A stretch of 64,000 bases of DNA, taken from assembly GCA_015146655.1 (NCBI GenBank), contig VKHL01000032.1, positions 1 through 64,000 of the forward strand, in the 5' to 3' direction. A program made the translations under genes and the position numbers. Positions 24,375 to 48,288 of the stretch are shown piece by piece. Source of the stretch: Ochromonas danica (taxonomy: Eukaryota; Sar; Chrysophyceae; Chromulinales; Chromulinaceae). Within the stretch, counting starts at the first letter, position 1, and the number at the start of each line of letters is the position of its first letter. The notes under the pieces were generated by a model. The model did not search any database, was not told the origin of the DNA, and worked only from the letters and a program-made list of their open reading frames with translations.

Positions 24375-25550
24375 TCAATGTCGACCCATAAAACGAATAC
24401 GGTCCATCCAATGATTGATGAAAGCTCTACTGTAGTCCCAGTTCTCTCGAGGAATTTTCTTTATTCGCTCCCATTCAGCTTGAAGTCTTGCTAGAGACAA
24501 ATCTTCCCATTTATCAAGAATTACCACTGGCAAGCTACCTCGAGTGAGTGTTTGGCCAGTTTTGGGGTTGACCAAGACATTATCACTGTCATCGTAGCAA
24601 CTCGATAAGGTAGACCTCCGCATGACAGGGATCCCTCCAAGAAGCAGAATCTCTGAGATACGATGAGTATCAAGGCCATGACCAAAAGGAGCCAAGACGA
24701 ACTTGTGATACGTGATAGCTTCCAACCATTGCGCATGGCTAAGATCTGTATGATTATACCATGGATTTTCATCTTTTGGTTGACCTTTAGGAGGAAATAC
24801 TCTTAATATAGACAACACTTTATGTCTATCAGGTACTCTTGACTTAGGATAGAAAGCAATAAGCAGCCAAGGACGCTGTTCGTCAGTCAAGTTAGCAAAA
24901 GGTCTGTTAATCACAAATCGTTGTAAAGCCTCAGTATAAAGATGAACTTGTTTGCCAATATGCCATTGTCGATTTTCAAATCCAATAGGAATACAATGAG
25001 AAAAAGTTGGTCTAGGTGAGAAAGTATAGTTTTTCCACCATAGATTTTGTGCAAAATGTGCCAAAAGTCGACCTCGTTTGTATTCCTCTGCCAAGAGATC
25101 ACTGGTGACGTATTTGGGCATACCAATACGAGGTGCGTCATCTTGCCCATCTGGAGCAGAAAGATCACCATTATGAGAGATGACAAGATAAGAGGCATTC
25201 ATACGAGGAATAACAGATTTAACGAAGAAGTCAAAGAAGTCAGTTTTGACAAAGATGATGTCGTTATCTTTCACACTGGCAGGATCCATACGACAACGAT
25301 TAGCATCTTCACAGATATGATGAGCAAAGGAACGAAAACTATCACCAGAGATGAAAGGGGTAGATGGTCTGCGATCTGTTCCGCGGTAAGAAATTCGACT
25401 TCTCTCAGTTTCTGACTTCTTGAACTCTTCGATAGCTTTCTCAGCTATTTCCTTGGTCATCAAACTTCCATAACATAGACAATATAGTAAACTCAATAAA
25501 AGTATAATAATAGAAGTATATCTTGTTCTTCTTCCTATCATGATCAACAT
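24375..25550 (-). CDS. Exostosin-like (GT47-type) glycosyltransferase
   Basis: 391 residues from the ATG at 25550; the ORF opens upstream at a TTG, which I reject. The N-terminus has one membrane anchor (YTSIIILLLSLLYCLCYGSL) after a short basic head, giving a type II Golgi topology. The rest is lumenal with potential N-glycosylation sites (NAS, NYT, NLT, NHT). The C-terminal half has the exostosin signature: KFVLAPFGHGLDTHRISEIL and LLGGIPVMRR, followed by PVVILDKWEDL. Such enzymes transfer sugars to polysaccharides or glycoproteins; donor and acceptor are unknown. The 5' ends of this gene and the Stealth gene face each other 148 bp apart. Confidence 0.85.
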   Translation of the reverse strand: MLIMIGRRTRYTSIIILLLSLLYCLCYGSLMTKEIAEKAIEEFKKSETERSRISYRGTDRRPSTPFISGDSFRSFAHHICEDANRCRMDPASVKDNDIIFVKTDFFDFFVKSVIPRMNASYLVISHNGDLSAPDGQDDAPRIGMPKYVTSDLLAEEYKRGRLLAHFAQNLWWKNYTFSPRPTFSHCIPIGFENRQWHIGKQVHLYTEALQRFVINRPFANLTDEQRPWLLIAFYPKSRVPDRHKVLSILRVFPPKGQPKDENPWYNHTDLSHAQWLEAITYHKFVLAPFGHGLDTHRISEILLLGGIPVMRRSTLSSCYDDSDNVLVNPKTGQTLTRGSLPVVILDKWEDLSLARLQAEWERIKKIPRENWDYSRAFINHWMDRIRFMGRH

Positions 25551-25698
25551 TCCAACATATTCCACCGAAACAATCAACTGATTCCAACCAAACAAGAGAC
25601 AATTAAGCTATTACATAACATAAATTGGTCTATTTCATTAAATTTGTTGGGCCAAGTGGAAGGCAATCGCATAGATCTCGTCTATCCTAGGGTTGGTG

Positions 25699-28600
25699 AT
25701 GGTTGTTCTATTAAAAGCTATACAACGAAGGTGTTATACCTTTCTAAACACAACATGGGGATTTATCTTCTTTGTCTTATTAAACTATGTTTTGATCATC
25801 TCATTTGTTCGCTTTCTTCAGTCTCAAGATCCTTGTAGGTAGGTACCCTTGGTTCCCTGGTCATCATCATCTTCCATCTAACCTCTTTCTTTGTCTAACT
25901 GTCCAGATTGAGAGGGAGTGGTGGTATGCACTGTAGCACTGTCAACTTTCTGGATAATATCGGAAATGTTCGCTCGGAAGTCTATCGGGCCTATGGACCC
26001 ATCGATGTGGTCTATACATGGGTGAATGGTTCTGATCCTCGATGGCTTGCTAAGAAGAATTATTGGGCTGAGAAGTATTCCTCACGTTTCCCTCCTTCTC
26101 CACCTCTCAATATGTCTGCTGCCAACAATACCAACAATACCAACAACAGCACGGATAGTAGCAATAATAATACGCATGATGAAGATGAAGTAATGTCTGA
26201 TAATCGATATCGTGATAGTGAAGAGTTAAGATATTCTTTACGATCTATTGTGAAATATGCTCCATGGGTACGTCACATCTACCTGGTGACAGACAACCAG
26301 TTACCATATTGGCTCAACCTAGAAACAGGGAAATTAACTGTTGTCTCTCATGAAACCATCTTCCGAAATACCTCTCATTTACCTGTCTTTAGTTCTCCAG
26401 CTATTGAGGCTAACTTACATAACATTCCTGGATTATCTGATTATTTCATCTATTTTAATGATGATGTCTTTCTAGGAGCACCTGCTCTGCCTGAAGATTT
26501 TATCTCTTTATCAGGTTTACAACGATTTATAATGGCTTGGGAAGTACCTAAATGTGCTCCTGGATGCTCAGATACTTGGATTGGTGATGGATATTGTGAT
26601 AAAGCATGTAATGTGAGTGAGTGTAATTGGGATTACCCGGATTGTATAAATGGCTCGAATGTCATGTCTTCTAGCTATGGCTCATCATCTAGTAGCGGCA
26701 GTCATCATATGCAGACTATCGTACAGTGCTCTTCAGGATGTCCTGATTCGTGGTTGGCTGATAAGATTTGTGATCAGCGTTGCAATAACTATGAGTGTGG
26801 CTTCGATATGGGTGATTGTAGTATTCATTTGATCAAAGATGGATATCCAAGTCTTGCTCTTTCCAAACAAAACACGTTTCTCAGTGCTGAAAACCATGTT
26901 GAAAGCGAAAGTAGTTTTGGTTATGATTATTCCGAGTATTACCCTTGGCATGAAGTGCCTGATGAAGGACACGAATGGTTTTCATCACTTCCGCAAGATC
27001 GGCAAGAAGAACACAGATTGTCTCATCTCCACCATCATTCGTCAACAAACAAAGCGGTCAAAGATGCTACTTTGACAGTGCCTTATGGTACTCGACTAGC
27101 GTATTTTGATCTAGGCTATCTGGAAGAAGTTTTCCGACTGCTTGGAAACATCAATAGTAACTTATCCCAAAGCAATGTGAGTGCGACCGAAACTGTCGAG
27201 AGAGAAGTGAAACTCAAGTTTGTCAACGTGGAACATGACGATATAACTAACGAAGTTGTTCATGTTGCTACCCTTCTGCTCCGCCATCGCTTGCTGGTTG
27301 TCTTGCTTCATACAGATGATGAGCACTATCAGTCTTTACAACAAAAACAGGACATTCATCGTCTCTCCCCTTTTCCATTTGCGGTTTCATTCACTATTAC
27401 AGTTAATGATGAGCTATCACCTAATCCTCCTTTGATGCTTTCTTGTCGTTTGATGGTATCACAAAGAGAACAGTACTTGATGAGTAGTGAACTATCTTCC
27501 TCATTAGATAGCACTGCTCTCTATGTGGCAGGAAGGCGAAGTGCTTATTCTCTTGGAATGAGAGAAGTATCTCAAGGACATTATCGCTATCCAGAAGAGT
27601 TGGAGATTGATATTCTTCCGTTGCCCTTGCGGATCGAATCTTTGCCTTCCACTTTGGATGAGAGCAATAAGACCATTGTTAACAGTCCTCACTCTAGTGA
27701 TACTGTATTAGTTATGACGTTGCAAAATAATCTATCAGCTTCGTTTGAGGTATTGGGAATTCGCAACTGCGACGAAATCTTTGTGAAAACTGTTTTGAGC
27801 TTCTATACTGACTTACCGTCCAAACTGGAAGGACAGGAAATTGAGAAAGTAAACTCGAATTCGACAGCCAATTCTTTTAGGCGACTCCTTCCACTTTGCT
27901 CTCTTCTACTCAACTATGAAGTTGATAAGCAAGTCTTTTATCCATTACCCGCTGTGGATAGCGTAAATGATAGTCTAACGTCTAGTTGGCAACATTCAAA
28001 AGTTGGTTATGATGCATTTTTGTTTTCTTCTGCAGCAACTCATTTGTTGCAGCGAAATGGTCTCTACAAAATGCGTAAGGAAATCAACAACAATCCAAGA
28101 GTATTATTAGGTTTGCCTAGTTTGATTCCGTCAATTCAGAATAATCGATCGGAAGGATACTTCCACTTTCATGTTCAGATTGTTCAAGGGAAAATGTCAG
28201 AATGTGAATTGCTGCAGTCAGAGGTCGAAAATAACGATGATGGATGTAATGGTCATCCTTTAGCATTTTTTAGTGGCCTGGTGCGCTTGAAGAACAGTAT
28301 CTTATTGATGCCGTCCGTTTCAACAGCCACTCAGAGGGAAGAATTAGAAGGTGTTGGTGAAATCATGCGAGATTCTGCTATACCTGTTGACTCGGTTGAT
28401 TCGAATATTAGTGCCGTCAATACAACTAAAGAAATTGTCACAAACAGTAGTGAGACAACACCTGTCGCTCTTGATAATTTGCCTGCCGAAGTGGAAAGTG
28501 TCTTGAAAAACACTTCAGAACCACAACATGAAAACATTGATCAAGATGCGCGCAGATTGGCTTCCTCGTCGTCGCATGCTAACTTCATCGAAGATGTGTG

Positions 28601-30221
28601 GAAGGCGATGATTCATGGACTGGAGGCTTTTGATTTGGCACATTCTTCCTTTTCCTTTCTCTCACCTTGGCATGTTTCCAAAAGGCAAGGTAAACAGGCT
28701 ACAAGAAGATCATCCAATCGCTTGTATCTGCAAAATCTTTTCAGCGCTTTTCACCTAGAATCGCTCGAAGAAGATGAGGTGAATATTGCCAGAAGATCCA
28801 ATTCTCGCCGCCGTTTAGACACCTATGCACAGTCTCTGATTCATGTTAACCGACTCTATAACAAGGAATTCGGTTTGGAAAACCGCAAAGTTCCTGCACA
28901 CGTTCCCCATTTTATAGCAAAGAGGTATGCCGAGGAGATGCAATCATTCTATCCCGCTCAATGGGATCACACATCTAGCAATCGCTTTCGATCTGGAGAT
29001 GATATGCAATATGCTTTCTCTTATTATTATTGGGTCATTAATAGGCACAAGAAGGTCCGCTATGACCTGTTGTATTATTTGCAAACCTACGTCGACAGTG
29101 ATGGGGATGGCCATATCAACAACAATGAGATGAGAACCTTGGCTAACATATATTTCCAACATTCGGCCTCTAATGAGGAGATGGAGAATCTGTTTTCTAT
29201 GCTTAATAACTGTACCGCAAATAATGCAAATGAGACGGGTTTGTTACATCATCATAGTTTACGATACTCCACTCCCCTAGGTGAGGTACAAAAGACCTAT
29301 TCTATTCGTCTGCATCCTCGGCTGGATGAAGTGGTAGGCTGCAATGAGCTGAAAGAAGGATTATATAGTGCGATCCAATGGCAGCAAGTTTATGGCAATC
29401 CAATGATTCTTTCTGATAGAGACTATGTCGCTTTTGAAATGATAAACGACAATTACTCTACCACGGTGCAGCAGCTCGATTCCATTCGAGCTCGTCAAAG
29501 CAAGTTTATTTGTGTAAACGACAACATGAAGCACCCTTCGGAGGAGTTGATGGGCGAGCTTCGGGCGTTCTTTCTATCTTTCTTTCCCCAGCCATCAATC
29601 TTTGAACTGCCGAAGGAAAACTCTAACCCCACGCTCTATCTTGATGAGTATCTGGCTTTAAAAAAGAAAAGAGAAGAAGATTATGTCTCGACTTGGATGG
29701 AACGTTTTGAACAAACTGCTTATAAATGGACTCATTCCTTCAGAATGGAGGTGGTCAAGATTTTGCGCGATTATACATTTCGTCTCTATGCATCCTTCTC
29801 TGAATTATCGCCATCAGACGGGCAAGAGAGATATTCTTCCGTGGAAGAGCGCCGAAGGAAGCAGCATTTAGATGAGCTTACTGTCGGGTTACATCATCGA
29901 CCATCTCTGCCCTCTGAGTCTTCAGCAACACGTCCTCGAGCTTTTATACCCGAGATAGGCTTCAATAGAGGAAATATAGATAAACTATCTGGACCAGAAA
30001 ATAGTAGCCTGCATTTGGCTTTGTTTTGTGGAGTCATCGGAATTGTGTTGACTTACTTAATGCGGAGGATGCTTCGACGACGGGTGGAAGCAACGACAAT
30101 AACCACCGCTGTCTCTGATTCTGTAGTACTACCATCTACTTCGGAAGAAACATCCAAAGAGAAAGGACCTTCCAATACACTTTCCCAGTCTAATGGGCCT
30201 GAGAAGAAGAAAAGGAAATAA
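25699..30221 (+). CDS. Stealth/GNPTAB-like sugar-phosphotransferase
   Basis: Exon 1 is 25699-25838 and exon 2 is 25907-30221 (68-bp GT-AG intron, phase 2), 1484 residues. Exon 1 encodes a membrane anchor (MVVLLKAIQRRCYTFL then a hydrophobic helix) that resembles the start of animal GNPTAB. Stealth region 1 is IDVVYTWVNGSDP (about residue 78). Region 2 is RDSEELRYSLRSIVKYAPWV with YLVTDNQLPYWL and YFNDDVFLG. Two LNR/Notch repeats follow (about 261-293 and 321-352, each with six cysteines). Region 3 is VPAHVPHFIAKR and the DDMQYAFSYYYWV stretch. Next come an EF-hand (DSDGDGHINNNE, about 1110) and region 4 (FICVNDNMKHPSEE). A C-terminal membrane helix precedes a basic tail. GNPTAB adds GlcNAc-1-phosphate to lysosomal enzymes. 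Here the substrate is unknown, but the layout is nearly that of the animal enzyme. Confidence 0.92.
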
Positions 30222-35836: not shown

Positions 35837-37216
35837 ATGCTCAGAGGAGAAAACAAGCAAGAAAATGCAATGAATTTAACACCAGATAGGAATATAAATA
35901 ATAATTTAATTTATATCTTTGCTAAGTTTAGTGTTGATGGGAAAGTGTTTTATTTTTCAACAGAAAGTTATTTCTTAATCTATTCTCTTCCTTCCAAACG
36001 AACCATTGTGGAACGAACTTTTGGTGGATTACGTTGTCTAGCCAATGTTGGTGATTCACCTTTACATTTAATTGTACCTTCAGGAGATAAAGCAGGAATT
36101 GAAAGTAGTCCTAGAAGACCGAAGTTTTGGAATGCGGAAGATTGTCGAGTAATGCATGACTTTGTCTTTGACACTGCTGTAGAGAATTGTGCTTGGAATC
36201 GTGAATTGATCATATTTCTTACTGCTAATAAGATCCATATCTATGATCTAGGAAGCTTACAGACAAGACAAGTACTTGATCGTAACACACAGTCTGATGC
36301 CATGGTGTTACAATTAGAAGGTGATATTCTCTGTTATCCTTCCACAGAGAAAGGTTCGATAGTCATCTATCAATGTAAAGAGAATCGCCCATTAAGCTGT
36401 ATTCAAGCACATCGTGGGGATATTGCTGTGATGGCGATGAGCAGGCAAGGCGATAAGTTGGCCACAGTGTCGACGACGGGAACAATTCTTCGAATCTTTG
36501 CAGTACCAACAGGAGAGCTTCTTCTCTCCTTCCGCATCAGTACTTTGCCTTTGTCCATTCTCTTCATGTCGTTTTGTCCATTAGGAAATTATGTCATTTG
36601 CTATGCAAAGAGTGGTTATGTCTATCTCTTCAGTCTGGTGCCTGATCGAAAAGAGGATGTCATCGCTATGGTAAACAACGAAGAGGATGACTATTGCACT
36701 GTAGTGACAAGGAGTAGTACTTCAGGAGGAGAAGGTCGTGTAGATAAGGGATGGATGGGAGTTCTAACCGAAGCGTGGCAATCCCCGCGAGCACAGCAAG
36801 TACTTGACACTGGACTGCATTCCCTCAGCCAGCTGTCATCCTTTTTCTCTGCTTCGCCACCTTCCAAGGCCGCTGGATCTCTTGGTCACCTTCAAGGAAA
36901 TGAAAAACTCCTTCGACCATGTCTAGAAGATGACATCGGGCAGTTTGTGCAGGCATTGTGCCTCGCCACCTCACCACTTCAACGCACTCCCTCTGCTACA
37001 TCCTCTGCAGCTGTTGATTGCAACGGACTTGCCATCTCTAAGCTGTCGTCTATTGATGGTAGTGTTGAACCCCCAGATTTGTGCGAATTTTCATCTTCGT
37101 TTGTGCTTCTTATATCCTTCGTGGGCGTTGTGCGCTGCTATGATGTAGTTCCACCATCTGATGAAGCAAAAGCACGGCTCGTTCTGAGGGAAGAAATCGC
37201 AGTGCCATTTCCTTAG
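35837..37216 (+). CDS. PROPPIN/WIPI-like WD40 protein without the FRRG motif
   Basis: 459 residues from 35837; the ATG at 35870 (MNLTPDRN) is an alternative. The chain follows the Atg18/WIPI propeller: FSTESYFLIYSLPSK, LIIFLTANKIHIYDLGS, a lipid-side blade with AHRGDIAVMAMSRQGDKLAT and then TILRIFAVPTGELLLSFR. PROPPINs bind PI3P and PI(3,5)P2 through FRRG at this place and act in autophagy. Here the motif reads FRIS, so both lipid-binding pockets are probably altered. Two loops are Ser-rich and disordered (about 300-380). A final blade includes FSSSFVLLISFVGVVRCYDV. Lipid binding is doubtful; a divergent WIPI3/4-like role is possible. Confidence 0.75.
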   Translation: MLRGENKQENAMNLTPDRNINNNLIYIFAKFSVDGKVFYFSTESYFLIYSLPSKRTIVERTFGGLRCLANVGDSPLHLIVPSGDKAGIESSPRRPKFWNAEDCRVMHDFVFDTAVENCAWNRELIIFLTANKIHIYDLGSLQTRQVLDRNTQSDAMVLQLEGDILCYPSTEKGSIVIYQCKENRPLSCIQAHRGDIAVMAMSRQGDKLATVSTTGTILRIFAVPTGELLLSFRISTLPLSILFMSFCPLGNYVICYAKSGYVYLFSLVPDRKEDVIAMVNNEEDDYCTVVTRSSTSGGEGRVDKGWMGVLTEAWQSPRAQQVLDTGLHSLSQLSSFFSASPPSKAAGSLGHLQGNEKLLRPCLEDDIGQFVQALCLATSPLQRTPSATSSAAVDCNGLAISKLSSIDGSVEPPDLCEFSSSFVLLISFVGVVRCYDVVPPSDEAKARLVLREEIAVPFP

Positions 37217-37372: not shown

Positions 37373-38077
37373 TTATTCATCCATTTCTTCATCTTGCTCG
37401 CTAGTGCAGAAGGGCAGCGCACAGTCCACTTGCTCAGCTTGTAGCTCGCTGGTCACAGTGGTAGTAGTCTGAGGAAGCAGATAAGCACGATTGTAGGCAT
37501 CTCCGTAGTCTAGGAGGATTTCATCGCCAGGTAAGATATCTTCCATGCAGACGATGACGATATGTGGTAATGTGTCAACATAGGCTGTGCGCATGGTAAC
37601 GTTGGGTCTGAACGCTACATTTAGATAAGAGTTGATGAAGCGCATTTCATTACCCATTTTGTCTGCATCAATTCCAAGTGAATCATCATGACCTTTGTCT
37701 TCCAGTGCTGCAACATAATGTCCATTCACAGTGTCTCCTACAATCTTCCCCGTGTACTCGCCCATGACATCAAAGCGGAAGAACTTCTCGGTAGCGAAAA
37801 GACCATATTGTCCACATAGAAAATGATCAGAACCTAGCTTTCTAACTTCTACTCCTTTTACACGATGACGTTTTGCTTTTTTCTGTTCTTCTTTACTCAC
37901 TCCTTGCCATTGATTGCTACCCACATAGCGAACATGCAATTCTTCAAAGGCTTTATCATTATCATGCTTTTCTGTTGAAGAAGGTGATTCTACTATATTA
38001 GCCACTTTATTTAGGGGTATCTCCTCAGGAGGAGGACCAGGATACCAAGATATTTCTTGATTCGACTTTGCCTCCAT
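37373..38077 (-). CDS. SET-domain protein
   Basis: 234 residues, single exon. The SET core is visible: GLFATEKFFRFDVMGEYTG, GNEMRFINSYLN (replacing the usual N-H-S after RFIN), then VCMEDILPGDEILLDYGDAY. SET proteins transfer methyl groups from S-adenosylmethionine to lysines. The histidine of the usual RFINHS is missing, so activity is uncertain, although the last Tyr (LDYG) is kept. No pre-SET cysteine cluster or post-SET CxCx4C is present. The N-terminal 90 residues are hydrophilic and Lys-rich. The gene is divergent from the methyltransferase-glycosyltransferase fusion, 197 bp apart. Histone or non-histone substrates are both possible. Confidence 0.8.
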   Translation of the reverse strand: MEAKSNQEISWYPGPPPEEIPLNKVANIVESPSSTEKHDNDKAFEELHVRYVGSNQWQGVSKEEQKKAKRHRVKGVEVRKLGSDHFLCGQYGLFATEKFFRFDVMGEYTGKIVGDTVNGHYVAALEDKGHDDSLGIDADKMGNEMRFINSYLNVAFRPNVTMRTAYVDTLPHIVIVCMEDILPGDEILLDYGDAYNRAYLLPQTTTTVTSELQAEQVDCALPFCTSEQDEEMDE

Positions 38078-38274: not shown

Positions 38275-41200
38275 ATGACACTGTCTCCAAGAAGCTTCAA
38301 GTCCTTTGGAAGACCTCTGGATGATAATGCGAAGCCTTCTGGTTGGTGGACATCCACCTTGTCTTGTAGTAGTGGTAGTAGCAGCAAGACATCGTGGACA
38401 AGAGCGATGCTCTTCACTGTCCTCTTCATCACCTCCACTATCATCTATGTACATCTTACTATGAACATTGAAGGTCCACCTTCTGTTCCTTCCTCTCTCT
38501 CCTCTGATACCACAAGTCAATCACAAGCACTACCATTCCATTCACTATCACCAACACAAGCACTACCTCACGCAGCTGAAGAATGGACAAAGCATTGGTT
38601 ATTGAGACAAAGTGAGGTTATGACCAACAGTGAGCAGAAGAGGTCATCTCAGTCATCTCTTCCTCCTCTACTTTCTGATAGTTTTGATGCCTTTGCTGCT
38701 GGTTCAGGTGTTAACATTTGGGATCTTTACCCACCCACTATAAACTGTCCTGATATGTTACGACTTGGTCAAGTTGGTGAAGGTGGTAAATGGATTTGTG
38801 GTCTATCACATATACAATCTCTATCAGAGTGTGTCATGTATAGTTTTGGTATTAGCACAGATATGAGTTTTGAAATGGAAATCTTGTTACATAGTCAGTG
38901 TGTTATTTATGCATTTGATCCTACTATTGGAGAATTACCTTATAGTAATCTTCCTATTCATCTCAATAAGAGTCTAACAGATGAATTGAAAAAGCGAATT
39001 ATCTTTCATAAGATTGCTTTAGGAGTAACAAGTGGTTCCTCATCATCACATATTCTCAATGAAGCATTCTATGACATCATGACACGTTTCAATCATAGTT
39101 TTATTCATCTAGTTAAGATGGATATTGAAGGTGGTGAATGGGATGTTTTTCAAGAACTTTCCACTTCAACTATTCTACCGCGAAAATGGCCTGTAGGGCA
39201 GTTATTAATCGAATTACATCATCAAACATCATCACAAACCTCTCATTTCTTCCACTATTTACACTCAATTGGTTTCTATCCTTTTAGTCGAGAGATTAAT
39301 CTCATTCCTTGTCTTTCAGGTGGAAAACCATTTGCTGTGGAATATTCCTTTGTTCATCCTTCACAGTTCTATCATGATGATCAACTTTATCGTCATGCTC
39401 CCCCTACCCCTGCCACTCCTAGTTGGCATACTCCTATTCAAGCTATTATCTATTATCTTTCTATGCATAAACGAGTAGGAAGATTAACAAAAGCTTTACA
39501 TTCTTTATATACCAATTATTGGCAATTCTATCCATATTACACAGTTGTTATCTTCCATGATGACTTCACAACAAAAGACTTATCTGATATCATACAAACT
39601 GTACCAAGAATGATGATTAAGTTTGTTCAAGTCTCTTTCACTATTCCAGAGAGTTTACTTCGTAAGAAGATTGAAATTCCTGAGCGAACAGTCTGCGATC
39701 CACAATTTAGCACGATTGGCTATAGACATATGTGTCGTTTTCATGCTTGGATGGTACATAATGAATTGGAAGAGTTAGGAATAGAATATGAATATCTTAT
39801 GCGATTAGATGATGATTCGATCTTCTCTCAACCTATTGGATATGATTGGTTTCGTTTAATGTTAACAAATAATAAAAAATATGGTTATGTGAATACTGTA
39901 GAAGATAATGTTGATTGTGTGGTTAACTTATGGGATCATGCAAGAAGAGGCTTTGTTAATCAATCAAATATACAATCATTACTAAGAGATGATAACTTTC
40001 TACAAGAATGGCCTGATCCAATGGTATTTTATAATAATTTCGAAATTAGTCATGTTTCTATATGGAAGAGTGTATTATGGAAGAAGTTTATAAATTATAT
40101 TGATGATATTGGTGGTATTTATACACTTCGTTGGGGTGATGCACCATTACATACTATTGGTGTATCTATGTTATTATCAAAGAGAGAGTTACATGCTTTT
40201 ACTGATATTAGCTATCAACATAGTCCTTTCCTAGATCAGAAACCTCGTGGTCTACCTATGCCAGGGATTGATCCATTCTCATATGCTATGGTGGAATGTT
40301 CTTATTATGACCGTTGGATTTGTGGGAATTCCACACAGAATTCTACATCAACTAGTAATGCTTCCATCACAACTGCTTCGTCATCGTCGTCATCGTCATC
40401 TTCTTCTTCCTTGCATCACAGTCTGACCTATCTCAAAGAAAGAGCAAAGCAACAACAACAACAACAAAGTCAAACTGGTGCTGCTGCTGTTGTTTATCAT
40501 TCACAAGATCAATATAATGCTTTAGTAAAGAAAGAAAAAGCAGTTTTGTATAGTTTTGGTCATGAAGGACGTGAACATCTTCTCTTAGAAACCATTTTAA
40601 ATCTATTTCAAAACTATGCATTCTCTTTCCCAACAGTATTTATTATCTTTTATAATCAAAATGGAAGTTTCAAAATAGATCAAATAGAGCAGGGATTACG
40701 ATTACGATCAAGTGATTTACATCAATTAATACCTCGTCCTGTGATTCGTTTCATACCTGTCTCATTGGATAAGCTAACACTTCTTCTCTCTTCTACTACT
40801 TCTACTAGACTTGATCCTTATTGTTCATGTCAAGATATGGAAGTACAAAGTGCATCCATTTTTCTACGTTTTGAAGCATTTACAATATTATCCTCTCTTG
40901 GATATGAATGGTTTCTTCGTTTTGGTGATGATTCGAAGTTATTATATCCTATAGGATATCATCTATTTCATCGTATGAAGATAGAGAAGAAAGTGTTTGG
41001 TTATATTGAAACAATAAGTGGACGATTAGAATGTTCATTACCTGTATGGGAGATTGCTAAACGATTATGTTCATCAACTACTACTGCTACTACCACTACT
41101 ATTGGTCAACAATCATCATCGTCATCATCATCTTCATCGTGTAGTGCATTGTTTCATGAATGGCGGCCAGAAATGGTGTTTATGACAGCATTAGAAGTCA

Positions 41201-43057
41201 GTCATATCTCTCTATGGCAATCAAACTTTGCTAAAGCAATGATAAATGAGATTGAAAAACATAACCATACAGCATTAGGTGCATTAGATTCTATTGTTCA
41301 TACTGTAATTGTAGTGGGTAGTTTAACATCTGATCAATTACTTCAATTAGAAGATCTTCACTTTCATTATGAATGGAATCATAAAGCAGGGAGTCAGATT
41401 ATAGATCATCGTATTCATATTAAAGATTATCATGTAATGGAAGTACAAGCATTAGATGAAGCGTTTGCTCCACAACGTTTGGGATGGTTAGGTGGAGATG
41501 TAGCAACTTCCATTCTTCTTCCTTTGCCTACTACAACAACAACTACTACTACATGGAATGCTATCCATGGTAATGGTTCTGTTGATTCTATGAAGAAAGG
41601 CAAGAAGTTGATTTGGTTATTTGGTGATTCTATTTTGGGAATGTCAACAGCAGAAAGGTGAGTAAGAACACATTGTTTATCAATGACTATGTTATGATCT
41701 ATCTCATAGTTGAATGCTTGTATCTACTGTATCGTATTGTATTGTATCTATGTAGGCGTATTGGAGATTATTCTTCTGTTGTAGCGAATACAATAGGAAT
41801 ATCGACAATTTCCTCTTCGTCTCAATGTTCTCCGTCACTAACAAGTCCTGCAGGTGTATCTACATCATCATCATCTTCTTCTTCTTCTTCTACATCTCCT
41901 CTAGCAGATGTACAAGACATCAAGTACTACTGGCGCATTGCTAAAGATGGTTCTCCTAAGGCAATCTTCCATCCTACAGAGTCTATCCTCTGTCGTGATC
42001 CACAAGTCCAACCAGTGATTTGGCCTATAGCAGGATTGGCAATCACTGGAGAGAAGATATCAGAGAATCGATTAGTAATCTTAGCACAAGTGTCTTGTGG
42101 ACATAATCCACAGAAAGATAATCTTCATACGATGATGTCTAAGAAAGCATTAGATTTTGTTGCTGAGCAAACAATGTTGATTATTGTGAAGAATCCTTAC
42201 GATGATCCAGATCAATGGCATTACGACCAGACAGTCTTTCCCACTGTAACTACTAGTACATCGTCATCATCATCATTATCTGTGCATTGGTTAGTTACAA
42301 CGATGTACGCATTTCTGATGGTACAATACTAATGTTGTAACATGTTGTTGTTGTTGTTGTTGTGTTATGTATATATAGGATGGCAATGAGTCCTTCTCAT
42401 GGAAGAAGAGTTGCTCATATGACAGATCTGCTTTATCTCGTAGGAGCCTATCGTCCAGCTTCTCAACAGCATGTATCAAGTGGTGGATATCAAATTCTAG
42501 GTCGTATCTCAGTGCAATCATTGTTAGGTGCAGATTTCTCTCAACTGGAAGTCTTCCTGGAAGATGAGCAATGGCATCCTTTCTATTCCATCCACACCAT
42601 AGCTGCGAATCAAACAACAACAACTACCAACACTATCTCCCTTCCTCGCAGTCTCTTTGGACCTGTTGTCAGTGAGATCTCATTCTTCTATCATTTCCAT
42701 AAACATCAATGGCAGACTGTAAGTTTGCGATTACTTGATCGTTATATTGAATCATGTCATGCAGAGAATGTGACGGGTCCTTGGACTTGTCAGTACATTG
42801 CTGAAGTTCCTTCTCGTTGGCAACATTCTCGTCTTCTCTCTTATGCAGCCAAAATGCATCCTGATTTGCTTGCCTCGTCATCATCTTCTTGTCAGTCTTT
42901 TCTTGGTCTCAAGTCCAACAACAAGAAGAAATGGCAAGTGGTGATTTCCTTTGTCTCCAATACAGTGTCTGGACCAGCTGCTCTGTTTGAATCCAACAAT
43001 CGTGCAGTCTATTCTCCCAAGTTTCTTTTTCTTGAATCGTCAAGAACTGTTACTTGA
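38275..43057 (+). CDS. Methyltransferase / double GT15-like / propeller fusion protein
   Basis: Three exons (38275-41657, 41756-42304, 42379-43057); all phase 2; about 1336 residues. I use the ATG at 38275 because the frame from 38116 opens at a GTG. Order: type II membrane anchor (about residues 45-64, LFTVLFITSTIIYVHLTM); an FkbM/METTL24-like methyltransferase (about 158-300, LRLGQVGEGGKWICGL and MDIEGGEWDVFQEL); GT15 module 1 (about 390-655, YRHMCRFHAWMV, YNNFEISHVSIWKS and RWGDAPLHTIGV, matching KRE2/MNT1 mannosyltransferases); a Ser/Gln linker; GT15-like module 2 (about 750-1040, FLRFGDDS, ALEVSHISLWQS), lacking RWGDAP; and a third domain (about 1110-1336, WPIAG, DPDQWHY, VTGPWTC, AAKMHPDLL) resembling DUF4185-type propellers. 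Likely a Golgi enzyme that builds and methylates mannose-type glycans. The exon 2 donor (GTACGC) is weak. Confidence 0.8.

Positions 43058-43899: not shown

Positions 43900-48288
<4,389 letters not shown>

Follow-up and report, generated by a model that had tools for sequence, protein, structure and literature searches.

The closest described relatives of the protein considered here are the GT15 alpha-1,2-mannosyltransferases (Kre2/Mnt1 and Ktr4), the METTL24 (PF13383) and FkbM (PF05050) methyltransferases, and the DUF4185/GH183 endo-D-arabinanases. FkbM-type enzymes methylate sugars. Ktr4p and Kre2p carry one catalytic domain, as do, to our knowledge, the other known GT15 members. In excerpts of one comparison of plants, animals and fungi, the GT15 family PF01793 is given as fungi-only (PMC5225481), and the sections at hand of a survey of green and red algae report that GT15 was not found (PMC3797821). 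O-methylated mannose has been described, in parts of two articles, in several microalgal N-glycans (PMC12507850, PMC7773692). We analysed a 64,000-nucleotide stretch of Ochromonas danica DNA (contig VKHL01000032.1, positions 1 to 64,000; hereafter the window), in which a single gene joins a membrane anchor, a methyltransferase domain, two GT15-like modules and a further C-terminal domain (Table 1).

An initial annotation of the locus had described one spliced three-exon frame at 38275-43057. This frame is present, with two predicted GT-AG introns, and encodes a product of 1536 amino acids (aa) followed by a stop codon. A single exon contains everything from the anchor, through the methyltransferase and the two GT15 modules, to the first part of the C-terminal domain, and the fusion is therefore real. 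Exon 1 was base-shuffled 200 times, and the longest open frame obtained had 162 codons (mean, 88), against 1127 in the real sequence, so the frame does not arise by chance. In our preferred interpretation, to which we give a probability of about one half, the protein would sit in the Golgi membrane as a type II enzyme, in which (i) GT15 module 1 would move alpha-mannose from GDP-mannose, with Mn2+, to a glycan in the lumen, probably an N-glycan or a chain of a wall glycoprotein, (ii) the METTL24-type domain would add O-methyl groups to that glycan, by which the mannose chain would be capped or spaced, (iii) module 2, a duplicated copy that has lost the metal and nucleotide machinery, would be a non-catalytic, acceptor-binding or structural partner, and (iv) the C-terminal domain would be a further glycan-binding or glycosidase-like unit. 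The earlier proposal of one Golgi protein that builds and O-methylates mannose chains holds for the single protein with its anchor, methyltransferase and GT15 module, whereas the Golgi location, mannose as the methylated sugar and the coupling of the two activities are plausible interpretations.

Module 1 is the clear GT15 module that had been annotated. PF01793 scores 131.6 bits in the whole protein (two stretches, the best at aa 371-651) and 128.4 bits in the genomic stretch of module 1, with a cut-off of 25 bits. The module also matches the GT15 enzymes 1s4n, 5a07 and 7boo of the Protein Data Bank (PDB) with E values of 6.1e-27, 1.2e-21 and 2.4e-20, respectively, and its NNFEISH and RWGDAPL motifs begin at aa 587 and aa 619. 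Twelve active-site positions (donor, metal, acceptor and active-site Glu) were taken from the accessible parts of the CaMnt1 (PMC11077754) and Ktr4p (PMC4546622) papers, placed on 1s4n by means of constant residue spacing in the alignments, and transferred from there to both modules. Eight of the 12 are retained in module 1 (Y209, R234, N316, E318, R347, D350, A351 and H377 in CaMnt1 numbering), and the metal acid is Asp (D512) instead of E236. The metal ligands (the EPD/EPN acid and the second His of YHH) and the donor Asp and Arg are therefore all represented (D512, H649, D622 and R510, respectively). These residues lead us to expect that module 1 is active as a metal-dependent mannosyltransferase, though with an altered acceptor pocket, and retaining alpha-1,2-mannosyl transfer is predicted for it. 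Glu318 (Glu329 of Kre2) is the residue that we take to be nucleophile-like; for CaMnt1, an SNi-like mechanism is favoured in the portion of that study available (PMC11077754). The family match, the donor and metal residues and the N-terminal anchor are shared with Kre2/Mnt1 and Ktr4, from which the fusion protein differs in having two modules (one of them degenerate), a methyltransferase and a tail, and in three positions of the CaMnt1 pocket.

The hydrophobic segment at aa 45-63 has the layout of a type II signal anchor, and this predicted topology derives from its sequence. Only one other hydropathy window exceeds 1.5 (aa 1000-1018, 1.59); it lies within module 2, at a place that corresponds to the module 1 core in the alignment, and is thus not read as a membrane segment. 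All 11 N-glycosylation sequons are located C-terminal of the anchor, and together with the hydrophobic segment they suggest a Golgi location. The FkbM/METTL24-like region proposed earlier was recovered with two Pfam families, PF13383 (68.5 bits, cut-off 22.4; profile positions 51-240 of 252) and PF05050 (aa 266-329, E 1.4e-6; 29 bits, cut-off 22.7). It differs from METTL24 and FkbM enzymes in being joined to glycosyltransferase modules. Motifs of the domain were recognized by eye (Table 1), and it may be capable of S-adenosylmethionine (SAM) binding and methyl transfer.

Several observations weigh against the proposed mannose-building and mannose-methylating enzyme. The stricter FkbM model TIGR01444 gives 18.4 bits, below its cut-off of 37.7, and membership of PF13383 is no demonstration of sugar methylation. 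The METTL24 papers listed, at the level of titles and abstract openings, gave no substrate for METTL24-type enzymes, and a lumenal methyltransferase would require SAM in the Golgi. The species named as having O-methylated N-glycans in the extracts of PMC12507850 and PMC7773692 are green and red algae, not stramenopiles. In module 1, V584, Y586 and N587 replace H312, W314 and S315 of CaMnt1, so that the acceptor and the linkage may differ from those of yeast. The prediction of the structure of exon 3 (mean pLDDT 39.3) is unusable as fold support. Finally, the domain order anchor, Methyltransf_22, GT15, degenerate GT15 and C-terminal domain was not found in the viral, phage and plasmid collections searched.

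A second explanation, which we regard as possible though less probable, is that the protein is a mannosyltransferase only, while the methyltransferase acts on protein or lipid or is a non-catalytic remnant, the two activities being joined without acting on one chain. The lack of a substrate in the METTL24 papers listed agrees with it, as do two further genes of the genome (31.2 Mb, 337 contigs). The genome was searched exon by exon, so that counts are lower bounds and absences provisional. Methyltransf_22 was found at four places, namely at this locus, in two tandem genes on C29 with scores above the cut-off, and in one gene on C54 that falls below it. The C29 genes are stand-alone and share 28% and 31% identity with the fusion domain over 166 and 162 aligned positions, respectively; glycan methylation therefore need not rely on the fusion domain. 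Nevertheless, the methyltransferase domain of the fusion passes both Pfam cut-offs and shares its side of the anchor with the GT15 module, which argues against a mere mannosyltransferase. As a separate observation, the C-terminal halves of the two tandem genes on C29 (148888-150686) are almost identical.

No second GT15 gene was found in the genome by a PF01793 search that also missed module 2 itself. With respect to the acceptor, GnT-I (PF03071) is encoded in the genome (E 3e-116), and no match to the protein mannosyltransferase family PMT (PF02366) was obtained at E values up to 0.1, a search that was positive in 7 of 14 control genomes. This combination points away from a fungal-type Ser/Thr-O-mannose acceptor, and extension of fungal-type O-mannan was accordingly lowered among the candidate functions.

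The second module had been described as keeping the nucleophile-like glutamate and losing the RWGDAP element, and both statements proved correct (Glu974; the motif ALEVSHI begins at aa 972). Its relationship to module 1 is clear (blastp 82 bits, E 4e-22, 25% of 290 aligned positions). When analysed alone it scores 15.7 bits with PF01793, under the cut-off of 25, and has one PDB match, 1s4n (E 0.0079). By these scores, which were produced by different programs and must be compared with caution, module 2 resembles module 1 more than it does yeast, as would fit an internal duplication. Three of the 12 positions are kept, namely R234, E318 and D350 of CaMnt1 (Arg882, Glu974 and Asp1005). The other nine are changed in the alignment to module 1, H312 and W314 being uncertain because the alignment to 1s4n puts them on a His and a Trp of module 2 a few residues earlier. 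The metal acid is replaced by Gly884, the metal His by Tyr1032, the phosphate-side Tyr by Ser859, the acceptor Arg by Gly1002 and the donor-contact Asn by Ala972. Since both metal ligands and the phosphate-side Tyr are lost, module 2 is probably not a metal-dependent transferase, and these residues suggest that it is probably non-catalytic. It is unlikely that both modules are active, adding successive mannoses, or that module 2 uses its donor without a metal: the retention of Glu974, Asp1005 and Arg882 and the evident homology to module 1 would agree with such activity, but the five substitutions listed above and the PF01793 score of the isolated module speak against it. Prediction of the structure of module 2, with module 1 as the alignment, was unusable (mean pLDDT 33.3).

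Weak matches to module 2 in the genome (C83, E 0.001; C143; C7) were rejected as relatives, since they disappeared at E values up to 10 under low-complexity filtering. The other Pfam family listed for the protein, Menin (E 0.053), spans the Ser/Gln-rich linker region between the modules and was set aside. Runs of Ser, Thr and Gln occur in and between the modules (window 40378-42363), and some of them are encoded by triplet microsatellites.

The C-terminal domain had been annotated as a third domain split by two introns. Both introns are predicted from the sequence; the domain begins already in exon 1 (at about aa 1069), and its connection to module 2 is therefore independent of splicing. Its proposed identity as a DUF4185-like propeller that binds or trims mannose chains was not sustained. 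DUF4185 (PF13810) gives a sub-threshold match at aa 1400-1477 (E 0.022 in the whole protein and 0.0018 for the domain alone; 14.5-18 bits, cut-off 39.5). No other Pfam family is reported for this domain with E values up to 10; one reversed and one shuffled copy gave no family, and neither did exon 2 alone. A six-frame search of the genome with PF13810 reported nothing, this locus included. We also built a GH183 profile from 10 sequences (nine phage domains, out of 32 phage records, and one from a Mycobacterium metagenome-assembled genome) and compared its scores with those of shuffled sequences, 1000 being made in each case. The real score was reached by 552 of 846 scored shuffles for exon 3, by 602 of 688 for the whole domain and by 23 of 795 for the N-terminal end, in which the FGD motif alone aligns. 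In addition, hhalign gave a probability of 0.2%, and no PDB match was found for the domain. The profile does not recognize the domain beyond the FGD motif, and a GH183 identity is not supported by it; being narrow and actinophage-heavy, it still leaves room for a distant GH183 relationship. The domain shares with the DUF4185/GH183 enzymes a sub-threshold Pfam match and the FGD motif, and may be a glycan-binding or glycosidase-like unit of uncertain fold. Elsewhere in the genome no copy of it was found, besides weak matches on C143 (E 0.004) and C51 (E 0.3) over the part with Ser/Thr runs.

A more far-reaching proposal extends the preferred interpretation. The missing algal mannose O-methyltransferase would be joined to its mannosyltransferase, the degenerate GT15 module would hold the chain, and a GH183/GH43-like five-bladed propeller glycosidase would trim the methylated mannan, so that a single chain would build, cap and edit glycans in the Golgi. 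Its counterpart is the mycobacterial methylmannose cluster (MeT1, pMeT3, ManT and MmpH), in which, according to extracts of the report, one mannan is the common target of methyltransferases, a mannosyltransferase and a hydrolase (PMC9883506). The mycobacterial proteins are products of separate bacterial genes acting on alpha-1,4 chains, and the likeness is one of function, by analogy only. The DUF4185 match with its negative controls speaks for this proposal, as do D1075 (GGD) and D1118 (FGD), which are reminiscent of the two Asp residues at the GH183 start (D33 and D51, the catalytic pair of EndoMA1, in the part of PMC10509167 consulted); the first Asp was placed by eye. However, the Asp residues are 43 positions apart, versus 18 in EndoMA1, the GH183 profile performs no better than shuffles over exon 3 or the whole domain and modestly better at the FGD end, and the hhalign and PDB results are those given above. 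Furthermore, excerpts indicate that GH183 acts on D-arabinan (PMC10115798, PMC10509167) and that MmpH resembles (alpha/alpha)6-barrel hydrolases rather than propellers (PMC9883506). We therefore consider a trimming propeller improbable.

The component families are known, while their order is apparently new; it was not met among the papers listed. In IMG/VR no relative was found of exon 1, exon 3, the whole C-terminal domain, GT15 module 1 or the methyltransferase (one scan gave 14 pattern matches, of which none was confirmed). Phage records contained no match to exon 1, and plasmid records no match to exon 1 or the C-terminal domain. The IMG/VR scans require one of six exact 8-residue peptides, and so detect close relatives only.

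That two or three genes were taken as one through an error of gene modelling or assembly is very improbable: the exon joins are predicted from sequence, but one stop-free frame of 1127 codons runs from the anchor through the methyltransferase and the two GT15 modules into the tail, each of the flanking genes is encoded on the opposite strand, so that the fusion was not merged from a neighbour, and an intron in one of them resembles those of the fusion gene in splice sites and size. The neighbours in question are a SET-domain gene (37373-38077, - strand), the start codon of which is 197 bases from the fusion gene start, and a gene assigned by eye to an ABC transporter (44143-48288, - strand), which follows the fusion gene and contains a 79-nucleotide intron (AG/GTGAGA...TGTAG).

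Table 1. Features of the Ochromonas danica fusion gene (positions in the window)
Feature	Position	Strand	Remarks
Fusion gene	38275-41657 + 41756-42304 + 42379-43057	+	predicted splicing
Exon 1	38275..41657	+	1127 open codons and a split codon; cytosolic tail, anchor, methyltransferase, GT15 module 1, GT15 module 2, start of C-terminal domain
Hydrophobic segment, aa 45-63	38407..38463	+	MLFTVLFITSTIIYVHLTM; mean hydropathy 1.82, strongest window; K and R just upstream
Methyltransf_22/METTL24-type domain, aa 150-343	38722..39303	+	PF13383 E 8.9e-19; FGIST, FDPT and KMDIEGGE motifs
GT15 module 1, aa 371-651	39385..40227	+	PF01793 E 5.6e-38; LDDDS, NNFEIS, RWGDAP and YQH motifs
Linker between GT15 modules	40228..40527	+	Ser and Gln runs
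GT15 module 2, aa 752-1036	40528..41382	+	degenerate
C-terminal domain, aa 1069-1536	41479..43054	+	genomic span including both introns; GGD...WLFGDS at start
Intron 1	41658..41755	+	98 nucleotides, GT-AG; AG/GTGAGT...TATGTAG/G
Exon 2	41756..42304	+	
Intron 2	42305..42378	+	74 nucleotides, GT-AG; TACTAAT branch-point-like motif by eye
Exon 3	42379..43057	+	includes stop codon

Third-position G+C within window 38722-41656, which runs from the methyltransferase into the C-terminal domain, is 0.17-0.25, compared with 0.34 and 0.40 in two neighbouring genes, which is a possible sign of foreign origin. A TGT run is present in intron 2, and an imperfect repeat of 24 bases (41718-41763) includes the 3' end of intron 1. 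Three other genes of the window were also noted. Approximately 8 kb upstream of the fusion gene, a Stealth-type sugar-phosphotransferase is encoded (25908-30218, + strand), with CR1-CR4 all over their cut-offs and with LNR/Notch repeats, a layout that we take to be that of the GlcNAc-1-phosphotransferase alpha/beta subunit and hence of a Golgi-type glycan gene. An RXYLT1 C-terminal domain (24378-25595, - strand; 27.4 bits, cut-off 27) marks a xylosyltransferase-type gene, the third glycan-type gene in the window. The third is a WD-repeat protein (35837-37213, + strand) matching PROPPIN (42.4 bits, cut-off 30), presumably the autophagy-type phosphoinositide-binding family.

Counting gene fragments, 47 matches to the light-harvesting family were found in the genome, and these show that the organism is photosynthetic. 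Among the best 60 of 406 PDB matches of one of these proteins, the top-ranking chains of usual length are XLH12, VCPI-1 and FCPI-1, outranked by seven long LHCI chains of 9vfj; we assume the former three to be from stramenopile algae, and on this one protein the organism is assigned to the stramenopile algae with moderate confidence. Four light-harvesting genes with identical scores and a constant 2407-base spacing (C224:8673-16382) are either a tandem array of recent origin or a repeat introduced in assembly.

In the sections consulted, a 2020 review states that no microalgal glycan-methylating enzyme had been characterised (PMC7773692) and in a 2019 study the mannose O-methyltransferase is singled out as the gene to be identified (PMC6344472); the main text of a 2025 review never uses the word methyltransferase (PMC12507850), and no later identification of an algal glycan methyltransferase was met among the open-licence papers listed. 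The methyltransferase fused to the sole GT15 gene found in this genome is thus a concrete candidate for the algal mannose-methylating enzyme. The locus also places GT15, fungi-only in one comparison, in a photosynthetic organism, and provides a further case of a degenerate glycosyltransferase module retained next to a seemingly intact one.

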